Below, piece by piece: positions 2,423 through 22,587 of a stretch of DNA of 53,903 nucleotides. The stretch is from a virus. The notes beneath the pieces were generated by a model, which searched no databases, was not told where the DNA came from, and saw only the letters and a list, made by a program, of their open reading frames with translations. Made by a program: the position numbers and the translations under genes. Location of the stretch: positions 1-53,903 of the IMG/VR virus record IMGVR_UViG_3300028284_000009; one strand, written 5' to 3'. Position 1 is the stretch's first letter, and every line of letters starts with the position of its first letter.

Positions 2423-2758
2423 TTAGTTTTTAATTGTTGATGGGTTTCTTTTATAAGAAGTTGTATCGTAGTATGCTTGTTTAAAATCCCACATAAGATC
2501 TTGTTCGAACTTTTCAAAAGAATCCTCGCCATATAATTTTCCGTATAATTCTTTGAAGCCTTGGTATCTACAGTATTTACCGTTGATTTCGTATGATAAC
2601 TCGATGTCGTTTATCTCGTGATCGTAATCCTCGTTATTCATGTTGAAGTTAACATAACTCCATACGGTTGCATTTACTTTGAATAAATCTAAGTCTTTAG
2701 TGAATCCAGTGCTTAAACTGTAGCTTTTTTCTTCGAATGTTTTAATCATTTTACTCAT
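2423..2758 (-). CDS. hypothetical protein
   Basis: A 111-aa protein with alternating aromatic and charged residues (YDHEINDIELSYEINGKYC) that suggest beta strands, then a helical tail. It is not recognised. It is the first protein gene after the structured RNA region 2781-3015; both should be transcribed from promoter-like copy 4. Confidence 0.55.
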   Translation of the reverse strand: MSKMIKTFEEKSYSLSTGFTKDLDLFKVNATVWSYVNFNMNNEDYDHEINDIELSYEINGKYCRYQGFKELYGKLYGEDSFEKFEQDLMWDFKQAYYDTTSYKRNPSTIKN

Positions 2759-2780
2759 ATCATTTAATTTAATTAGTTAG

Positions 2781-3015
2781 TAACTAGTGAGGAATCGAAC
2801 CTCATACCCGTCGGTAGCCTGACCTAAAGATCACCTGACCTAGTTCCACTAGCAATTCACTTATGTAATTTAGGTACCATTTGTCGTGGTATCTTTACAG
2901 CATTCGCCCACCTAAATCCTAATTAAGTTACTCGTCTAGTTATAACACCATTCCAGGATCTTCGTCAGCTTAACAATTTATACTACCATTGCCGTACTGA
3001 GCCCCACAAAGTGTT
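2781..3015 (-). ncRNA. structured RNA candidate with tRNA-like T-arm
   Basis: This gene-free stretch in a packed block folds well as minus-strand RNA. A T-arm-like hairpin (stem 2788-2792 with 2800-2804) carries a TTCGATT loop, exactly like a tRNA T-loop. Beside it is TACC-GACG-GGTA (2805-2816). Further on, ATTTAGGT/ACCTAAAT (2868-2875 with 2910-2917) encloses TACCA/TGGTA (2875-2879 with 2887-2891). A perfect 7-bp helix, TAACTAG/CTAGTTA (2936-2942 with 2781-2787), could close the whole 160-nt unit. A 9-nt direct repeat (CCTGACCTA, 2818 and 2834) lies inside. I could not fit a normal D-arm and anticodon arm, so a plain tRNA is unlikely. Promoter-like copy 4 lies just upstream. Confidence 0.45.
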
Positions 3016-3032
3016 TGTTGTGTTGTTACATA

Positions 3033-3066
3033 TATATTATCCTGCTTGTGTCGTATTTTTTTTGTA
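3033..3066 (-). promoter_or_regulatory. early promoter-like element, copy 4
   Basis: Same blocks and 10-nt spacer. It is the only copy whose immediate downstream sequence is not a coding gene but the structured RNA region, with the gene at 2758 beyond it. It overlaps the 3' end of the gene at 3037. Confidence 0.6.
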
Positions 3067-3255
3067 TTTCTTTTGACCTAGATTTAGATCTTGATACATA
3101 CGGCTAACTACACGGTGCATAAGCTCGGTGTGTATAGCAGCAAACTCGTCGCCGTCCTCTATGATATGATCACCATCAAGTTCCCATTCACATACTTCTG
3201 ATAGTTTATCTAACATTGTAACGGATATTCTATTTACTTTTAATTGTGTCTTCAT
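3037..3255 (-). CDS. hypothetical protein
   Basis: A 72-aa protein with no recognised domain. It is acidic in the middle (ELDGDHIIEDGDEF) with a basic end. Its start overlaps the stop of the gene at 3255 by one base, so it is the last gene of the run 4022 to 3037. A GTGTATAGCA decamer (plus-strand 3130-3139) lies in its coding sequence. Confidence 0.55.
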   Translation of the reverse strand: MKTQLKVNRISVTMLDKLSEVCEWELDGDHIIEDGDEFAAIHTELMHRVVSRMYQDLNLGQKKYKKNTTQAG

Positions 3256-21027: not shown

Positions 21028-22587
21028 ATGTCAGACAAGATAGTAAAGAACCTTAATTTTGGTGAAGAAGCCAGAAATAATGTATTTAAAGGAATAGAAA
21101 AGCTTACATATGCTGTTAGCTCTACTTTAGGAGCTAGTGGTAAATGTGTGATGCTAGAAGATGGGTCAGGAAGACCAGTAATTACAAAAGATGGTGTAAC
21201 AGTTGCAGATTCTATTGTATTACTAGATCCAGTTGAAAACATGGGAGCCACCCTATTAAAAGAAGCGGCTAGGAAAACTGTTAGAGAAGCCGGTGACGGA
21301 ACTACAACAGCTACAGTATTAGCACATGCAATTTTAAAAGAAGCTTATAAGGTTTCAAACAAAACAAACTCCAGAGAGTTAAAAGATGGTATTGTATCAG
21401 CTACAGAAAAAGTAGTTAAATACTTGCAAAAGAATTCTACTAGTGTCAAGGGTGACATGATTGATCAGATAGCTACTATATCTACTAATAACGACCAAGA
21501 GTTAGGTAAGTTAATAGCAGACGCTTTTAGAGCTGTAGATAATACAGGTATAGTTATGATGGAGACATCATCATCTGGAAAAACAGAAGTAGAAGTTGTT
21601 GATGGTATACAATATGACAAGGGACTTAAAAACTCTCATTTCATTACTAACCAACAAAATAAATCAGCTGAACTAGACAATCCTTTAGTTTTGCTAATTG
21701 AATCTCCTGTTGAGTCGATAAGACAAATACAATCAGTGTTAGAGTATGTAATAAAAAACAACAAACCTCTGCTCATCATAGGTGATTTAGAGCAAGGTGT
21801 TTTATCAGCTCTAGCAATGAATAAAAACAAAGGAAACATTAAGGTCAATGTTATTGACGCGCCTACCTTTGGAATTAGCAAAAAAGAGGTGTTAGATGAT
21901 CTAGCTTTATTAACTGGAGCTACCATCATTAACGAAGACTTAGGTGATGATATGGATTTGATCCAGATCGAGCACTTAGGAACATGCTTAAGAAGTATTA
22001 CTACACATAGTGAAACTGTTTTGAAAGTTGGAGAACCAACTGAAGATGTTTTAAGTATTATAAAAGACTTAAAAGAAGAATTGCTTGTAGAAAAGCAGTC
22101 TTATAAGATTATTAAGTTAGAAACAAGATTAGCTAGATTATCAGCTAAAATAGCTATTGTTAAAGTTGGTGCTAACTCTGAGATAGAGTTGCAAGAAAAG
22201 AACGATAGAGTAGAAGATGCGATTTGTGCTACTAAAGCAGCTATTAAAGAAGGTATTGTCCCAGGTGGTGGTATTGCTTTATTAAATGCTTCAATGTATA
22301 TCAAGCCGATGAACCAAGGAGAAGAAGTGCTGCTAGAGGCAATTAGAGCGCCTTTTAAGACAATATTAGATAACGCAGGTATAACAGACATAAAAATTCC
22401 CAAGAGCAAAGGTAAAGGCCTTAATGTGATTACAGGAAAAACTGTTACAATGGTAAAGTCTGGTATTATCGATCCTTTATTAGTTACAAAGTGTGCATTG
22501 CAAAATGCTTCATCAGTTGCTACTACAATATTATCAACCGATTGTGTAATCAATAATTTAAGAGTTGGAGATGAGAGCAATAGGTAA
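21028..22587 (+). CDS. groEL: phage chaperonin GroEL
   Basis: A 519-aa homologue of the 60-kDa chaperonin. The ATPase motif is intact: EAGDGTTTATVLA (D90), ITKDGVTVAD, VPGGGIALL (G413-415) and the VEDAICATKAAIKEG segment with the catalytic Asp before it. TLGPKG is changed to TLGASG (33-38), near the phosphate loop. It ends GDESNR without the GGM tail that lines the bacterial ring cavity, so it is shorter than the usual 540-548. It should form a folding chamber with the GroES partner just behind it (16-nt overlap). It probably folds capsid or other virion proteins. Confidence 0.9.
   Translation: MSDKIVKNLNFGEEARNNVFKGIEKLTYAVSSTLGASGKCVMLEDGSGRPVITKDGVTVADSIVLLDPVENMGATLLKEAARKTVREAGDGTTTATVLAHAILKEAYKVSNKTNSRELKDGIVSATEKVVKYLQKNSTSVKGDMIDQIATISTNNDQELGKLIADAFRAVDNTGIVMMETSSSGKTEVEVVDGIQYDKGLKNSHFITNQQNKSAELDNPLVLLIESPVESIRQIQSVLEYVIKNNKPLLIIGDLEQGVLSALAMNKNKGNIKVNVIDAPTFGISKKEVLDDLALLTGATIINEDLGDDMDLIQIEHLGTCLRSITTHSETVLKVGEPTEDVLSIIKDLKEELLVEKQSYKIIKLETRLARLSAKIAIVKVGANSEIELQEKNDRVEDAICATKAAIKEGIVPGGGIALLNASMYIKPMNQGEEVLLEAIRAPFKTILDNAGITDIKIPKSKGKGLNVITGKTVTMVKSGIIDPLLVTKCALQNASSVATTILSTDCVINNLRVGDESNR

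Follow-up and report, generated by a model that had tools for sequence, protein, structure and literature searches.

An anticodon-less tRNA-like RNA domain predicted at the 3' end of an exchangeable module array in a phage

The window analysed here is a stretch of viral DNA of 53,903 nucleotides (IMG/VR record IMGVR_UViG_3300028284_000009). Between its minus-strand genes at 3037-3255 and 2423-2758 lies a gap of 278 nt (2759-3036) that is free of genes, as an initial annotation had stated, and that contains a structured RNA of the minus strand (Table 1). Read 5' to 3' on that strand, the locus comprises a promoter-like sequence, two structured modules designated M3 and M2, and a tRNA-like domain designated T1, after which the downstream gene begins; the product of this gene had no match in PHROGs. 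The initial annotation had also placed a promoter copy immediately upstream of the RNA, and such a copy was found there; we infer that it is active as a promoter. Roughly ten similar copies precede early genes on the minus strand of the window. The strand of the RNA itself was corrected to the minus strand, that of the neighbouring genes, and the plus-strand reading was rejected (fold z of -0.52, genes oriented the opposite way). Elsewhere, an ORF at 21028-22587 on the plus strand encodes a GroEL-like chaperonin, and groEL occurs in related phages too. The relatives of the terminase are podoviruses of Flavobacterium and Cellulophaga, with 44% identity to Elemovirus and 61% to an uncultured relative, which points to the window being a podovirus related to the phages of Flavobacteriaceae.

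Table 1. Coordinates of the RNA locus and of related elements; positions refer to the window unless another record is named.
Feature	Sequence	Position	Strand	Observation
Promoter-like sequence	TACAAAAAAAATACGA-n-GATAATATATATGTAAC	3025..3066	-	immediately precedes the RNA; same letter at 42/42 positions of sister phage L015
Promoter-like copies, 5' ends	TTTACAAAnnAATACGA-n9-GATAATATATATGTAAC	485, 1346, 2216, 3055, 4067, 5687, 6615, 7315, 7629, 7902	-	
M3	GGGCTCAG...TTAAGCTGACGAAGATCC	2949..3007	-	59/59 identical in L015
M2	ACTAG-ACGAGTA-ACTTA ... insert ... TAAGT-GAATTG-CTAGT	2848..2941	-	fold z -3.07
Exchangeable hairpin inside M2	GGATTTAGGTGGGCGAATGCTGTAAAG...GGTACCTAAATTAC	2865..2919	-	same insert type in M2 of L030, L046, L165
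T1, tRNA-like domain, 65 nt		2781..2845	-	model R1 65.1 bits, E 4e-20; MFE fold equals comparative structure
T1 acceptor, 5' strand	AACTAG	2840..2845	-	pairs with 2787-2782; 6 pairs, 100% formed, 4 changed on both sides
T1 D-like segment	GTC-AGG	2834..2839	-	GTC pairs with GGC 2819-2817; GG at the place of the D-loop GG
T1 variable arm	TGATC-TTTA-GGTCA	2820..2833	-	stands where the anticodon arm would be
T1 short hairpin ahead of the T-arm	TACC-GACG-GGTA	2805..2816	-	co-variation TACC/GGTA vs TACT/AGTA
T1 T-arm	TGAGG-TTCGATT-CCTCA	2788..2804	-	stem co-varies: GAGGG/CCCTC, AAGAGG/CCTCTT, CGAGG/CCTCG
T1 acceptor, 3' strand, and discriminator-like A	CTAGTT + A, then C	2781..2787	-	
Next gene, 111 aa ORF		2423..2758	-	start codon 22 nt past T1
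tmRNA-like domains without tag frame, with G3:U70		L010:754-834; L138:7290-7371(-); L152:8372-8448(-); many others		

The initial annotation had described a perfect tRNA-type T-arm in an RNA that lacks a normal tRNA body. The T-arm was confirmed on the minus strand, and the wider description is now strongly supported, with an acceptor helix, a GG in a D-like segment, the T-arm and a 3' A-C all in place and the anticodon arm absent. Where that arm would be, T1 carries a variable arm whose sequence and length are wholly exchangeable, ranging from nearly none in L046 to more than 80 nt in L029 and differing in sequence in the sister phage L015. The relatives share the frame acceptor - GTNNGG - arm - NAC - TACYGACGRGTA - T-arm - acceptor - A-C, and the A-C after the acceptor was present in nearly all T1 copies, with G-C in L029 as the exception. 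A 7-bp closing helix proposed earlier (TAACTAG/CTAGTTA) turned out to be a coincidence of the self-complementary CTAG, which occurs four times in the RNA region and thus permits several alternative pairings; the real closing helix has 6 bp and a nearer partner. In 42 distinct relatives this nearer helix, CTAGTT with AACTAG, was completely paired, and four of its pairs had changed on both sides; the far partner of the 7-bp helix is missing in L015 and altered in many M2 copies. The three further helices drawn at that time are parts of the separate modules M2 and M3, and the relatives decide for a structure in which M2 and T1 each close on themselves.

For the 42 distinct T1 cores, aligned after the variable arm had been cut out, 97.2% of the paired cells formed, 11 of 17 pairs were changed on both sides, and double changes accounted for 57 cells. 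None of 500 shuffles, in which relatedness among the cores was ignored, attained any of these three values, and sliding the partners destroyed the signal. Compensatory changes in related phages, which had been proposed as a check, were thus found in all four T1 helices: in the acceptor (GGATAG/CTATCC, AACCAG/CTGGTT, AGCTAG/CTAGCT, AGACAG/CTGTCT), in the 3-bp D-like helix (GTA/TAC, GTC/GAC, GTC/GGC, GTT/AAC, ATA/TAT), and in the short hairpin and the T-arm (Table 1). Since the searches had demanded GACGRGTA together with a portion of the T-arm, the invariance of those letters is no evidence. Core extraction had demanded a fully paired acceptor; a scan free of the acceptor requirement still yielded the same four acceptor variants. 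Moreover, L156, which was reached through M2 and not through the T1 pattern, has an AACTAA/TTAGTT acceptor and a TATC-GACG-GATA hairpin, both compensatory. The exact 26-nt 3' end of T1 is present in 20 other viral contigs, and looser patterns gave, among the matches listed, many more stretches with the same frame around very different sequences. Model R1, built from the cores with the window sequence as a member of its training set, matched the window at a single place. Folding energy was less informative, with z values of -0.95 for the whole region, -1.27 for T1 and -0.03 for M3, M2 being the only unusual element, and whole-region energy was rejected as proof of structure because it is near random. 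The initial annotation had held that random folding energy would count against a structured RNA; such energy was indeed found, M2 excepted, and we rate it a weaker test than comparison.

At the same place in L015, the promoter-like sequence and M3 are identical to those of the window and the 3' part of T1 matches at 38 of 39 positions, while M2 is absent, the T1 arm is different, and the downstream gene is only 71% identical. This amounts to a natural exchange of modules, and it shows that the T1 frame is under selection. A decayed tRNA, as the initial annotation had allowed, or a chance hairpin would agree with the near-random folding energy and with the lack of a tRNA call, but this explanation is refuted by the compensatory changes in four helices, by the recurrence of one design across the phage clade and by conservation of T1 above that of the adjacent gene, and we consider it hardly conceivable. 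Based on these sequence comparisons, we regard it as close to certain that T1 is a tRNA-like RNA domain of the minus strand that lacks an anticodon, is under selection and forms the 3' element of a composite M3-M2-T1 RNA in an early region of the phage.

With respect to known families, ARAGORN made no call on the region and Rfam gave no match at gathering thresholds, whether to GOLLD/ROOL or to any other large-RNA family, so that neither of these previously proposed checks identified a standard tRNA or tmRNA. The only sub-threshold match in the tRNA clan, tRNA-Sec, was rejected at 16.9 bits (E 1.1). T1 does have the 5-bp T-arm with a TTCRANY loop and the 3' discriminator of a tRNA (RF00005), but it falls below the family threshold and has no anticodon arm with a 7-nt loop; the arm at that position has no fixed loop. 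A tRNA with an intron was rejected as well, since there is no constant anticodon arm and the arm present is freely replaced. Relative to canonical tRNAs and class II tRNAs with a long variable arm, the T-arm, the 3' A and a short hairpin at the variable-arm position are alike, whereas the missing anticodon arm, the 6-bp acceptor and the absence of an ARAGORN or Rfam call set T1 apart. For tmRNA (RF00023), T1 yielded no more than fragments of its T-arm, at 12-17 bits against a gathering cut-off of 47 bits; the third acceptor pair was C-G or A-U in 42 of 42 cores instead of G3:U70, the tmRNA D-loop sequence TTGAC is absent, and neither a tag reading frame (by inspection) nor an ORF of at least 60 aa was found in the 65-nt T1. 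T1 is thus no tmRNA and would at most act in the manner of a tmRNA's tRNA-like domain. Mycobacteriophage DS6A has a tmRNA that consists of the tRNA-like domain alone (PMC4131195; PMC11915505), and T1 resembles this RNA, as well as the plastid tmRNAs without a CDS, in its acceptor and T-arm, its D-like GG and its lack of an anticodon arm and a tag frame, and is, like that of DS6A, phage-encoded. It differs in having no G3:U70, in its 6-bp acceptor, extra TACYGACGRGTA hairpin, 3-bp D-like helix and exchangeable arm, and in going unrecognised by the tmRNA model. In the literature searched, neither T1 nor the nested modules had been described.

The window terminase was present in 48 of the 50 T1-bearing records as near-complete copies of 65-78% identity, and T1 was present in all 50, mostly as one strong copy. 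A DNA search of annotated phages with the RNA region gave no match; T1 had no match in MW202828, with a terminase 61% identical, and only weak, chance-level matches in Elemovirus NC_055852. In bacterial genomes there was a single exact-pattern match (L180); the 6.7-kb scaffold that carries it comes from an Ilumatobacteraceae MAG, holds M2 and a tmRNA-like domain as well, and is probably viral, a mis-binned phage contig. Only 2 of 34 records picked by M2 or the terminase held T1, a rough measure of prevalence given that these records are mostly short and all possibly incomplete; T1 is therefore not universal in the phage group and is one of several alternatives, and most array-bearing records have T1, a tmRNA-like domain, or both. 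Weaker T1-like matches of 26-27 bits with other acceptor sequences, at L052:5741-5791 and L118:1006-1056(-), are possible distant relatives.

The alternative ends of these arrays are themselves tRNA-like. Similar arrays in the same phage group often terminate in tRNA-like domains of tmRNA without a tag reading frame, mostly of about 70-145 nt, which score 51-69 bits with RF00023 in one class (T2) and mostly 32-45 bits in another. The G3:U70 alanine identity pair is present in 60 of the 62 domains of this kind whose acceptor has GG, A-C follows in 62 of 62, and a four-nucleotide linker plus GG is common to T1 and most of them (ATATGG, AAATGG versus GTATGG in T1). Mini tRNA-like genes, about 45 nt long and made up of GAGCATA or GAGCGTG, CTACGGTACTAAG and a T-arm, were seen at L033:2211-2256, L049:2074-2119 and L156:8718-8763(-); to our knowledge, this is far below the length of any bacterial tRNA. 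A further 45-nt element of this kind (acceptor, CTACGG, T-arm) sits within an M2 hairpin at L168:3305-3349, which hints at a further use of tRNA-like folds as plain structural plugs. Some arrays are followed by tRNA-Met(CAT) genes, some apparently of the initiator type (L016:2370-2444, L017:533-607, L138:7213-7286(-), and others), and a few by tRNA-Gln(TTG). The tRNA arrays of jumbo phages and mycobacteriophage clusters are likewise clusters of tRNA-type genes, but most elements here are unable to decode.

Upstream of these ends, the modules show a similar mixture of constancy and exchange. M3-related copies occur in L005, L011, L014, L021, L030 and L035, with CTCAG/CTGA versus CTTAG/CTAA by inspection. 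The 5' half of M2 was found in 67 other viral stretches; in 52 distinct copies its core helix is C-G in 38 and G-C in 14, and its closing stems co-vary (for example GCTAG/CTAGC, GTTAG/CTAAC, GCCAG/CTGGC). The insert type of the window's M2 recurs in L025 on a different scaffold, a tmRNA-like domain, and identical 15-mers of inserts are shared across scaffolds, ACCGCGGCGTAAGCA by T1, M2 and m_g and GGTGAGGGATCGTTA by T1 and M2, the m_g regex being used only for matches within an array because it gives false matches in coding DNA. Minimal inserts occur as well, with GGAAAC in M2 and almost nothing in the T1 of L046. Modules nested at hairpin tips were observed in the M2 regions of L135, L143, L149 and L175, with inserts common to different scaffolds; in L175, by inspection, the M2 hairpin encloses m_a, which encloses m_b, which encloses a further hairpin.

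One explanation for this architecture is that M3, M2, T1 and other modules would build one ornate RNA of exchangeable structural parts, in spirit like the GOLLD/ROOL cages. The large GOLLD/ROOL RNAs also occur near tRNA genes and, like the arrays here, are ornate phage-borne non-coding RNAs. The sharing of hairpins between scaffolds, their nesting several deep and the identity of M3 between sister phages are in keeping with such an assembly, but L015 retains T1 and M3 without M2, and the modules here are individually exchangeable and nested with no fixed overall layout and no match to a large-RNA family, so we consider a single assembly unlikely. Alternatively, T1 might be a processing or stability cap, a form of tRNA punctuation in which cleavage at its ends frees the upstream M3-M2 and leaves a clean leader of 22 nt on the downstream gene, without the fold needing a target of its own. 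That T1 lies just ahead of the following start codon, both in the window and in many relatives, that its 3' A-C is conserved and that different tRNA-like ends substitute for one another would all be expected of a cap; a real tRNA gene would serve equally, however, and these phages have such genes, and hundreds of bases of conserved upstream modules would be left unexplained. We judge this role less likely than not, though only slightly behind the reading preferred below. Still less probable is an anti-defence substrate, a tRNA look-alike without an anticodon loop that absorbs or resists host tRNA-cleaving nucleases while its changing arm tracks the attackers. A hypervariable arm in a conserved frame would suit this idea, and tRNA-cleaving defences are known, one of which is reported to cut a tRNA variable loop (PMC13096335), but the arm sequences are recurring modules rather than anticodon mimics, and neither a nuclease nor a host was identified.

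Our preferred, though tentative, reading is that T1 may be a processed decoy for the tRNA or ribosome-rescue machinery. The RNA would be transcribed from the upstream promoter copy and, by analogy with tRNA biology, excised by the tRNA maturation enzymes of the host, with RNase P cutting the 5' end and the 3' tRNase the 3' end, and with CCA added at the discriminator-like A. It would then occupy, to the benefit of the phage, factors whose recognition of tRNA depends on its acceptor/T-arm half; the most plausible ones act in ribosome rescue (SmpB, EF-Tu, the tmRNA pathway) or in tRNA maturation. The DS6A RNA is proposed to inhibit the tmRNA of its host in this manner. A tRNA-like-domain molecule similar to that of DS6A is a strong inhibitor of tmRNA with or without the capacity to be charged with alanine, perhaps through titration of SmpB (PMC4131195; PMC11915505). 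This precedent, together with the arrays of the same group that end in reading-frame-less, G3:U70-bearing tmRNA domains, favours a decoy, and it bears directly on the sister tmRNA-like domains. The absence from T1 of G3:U70 and the tmRNA D-loop sequence, along with its low tmRNA model score, means that binding of SmpB or AlaRS cannot be read from its sequence, and its target could equally be EF-Tu, RNase P, the CCA enzyme or enzymes that modify the T-arm. Against a decoy stand the mini element inside the M2 hairpin of L168 and the rarity of T1 among records picked by M2 or the terminase.

Taken together, these data describe a covariation-supported tRNA-like RNA family that was missed by Rfam and ARAGORN and that, within the tests made, is restricted to one phage clade, and they show that anticodon-less tRNA and tmRNA domains, known before as a single oddity in DS6A, are common in a whole marine phage group. 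It is conceivable, if still speculative, that the arrays are a previously undescribed genetic system, in which modules are mixed, swapped and nested at hairpin tips and every array closes with a tRNA-like domain that lacks an anticodon, be it T1, a tmRNA-like domain with G3:U70 or a mini form of 45 nt. The exchangeable hairpins would then be the variable payload and the tRNA-like ends would see to delivery or maturation, which would give these phages a combinatorial arsenal of RNAs that recombines from one phage to another. Nested modules that act as a payload would represent a novel route to RNA diversity in phages, and a block of ribosome rescue or tRNA handling by T1 or its relatives, if it occurs, would make them a natural inhibitor and reveal a phage strategy that can be tested.
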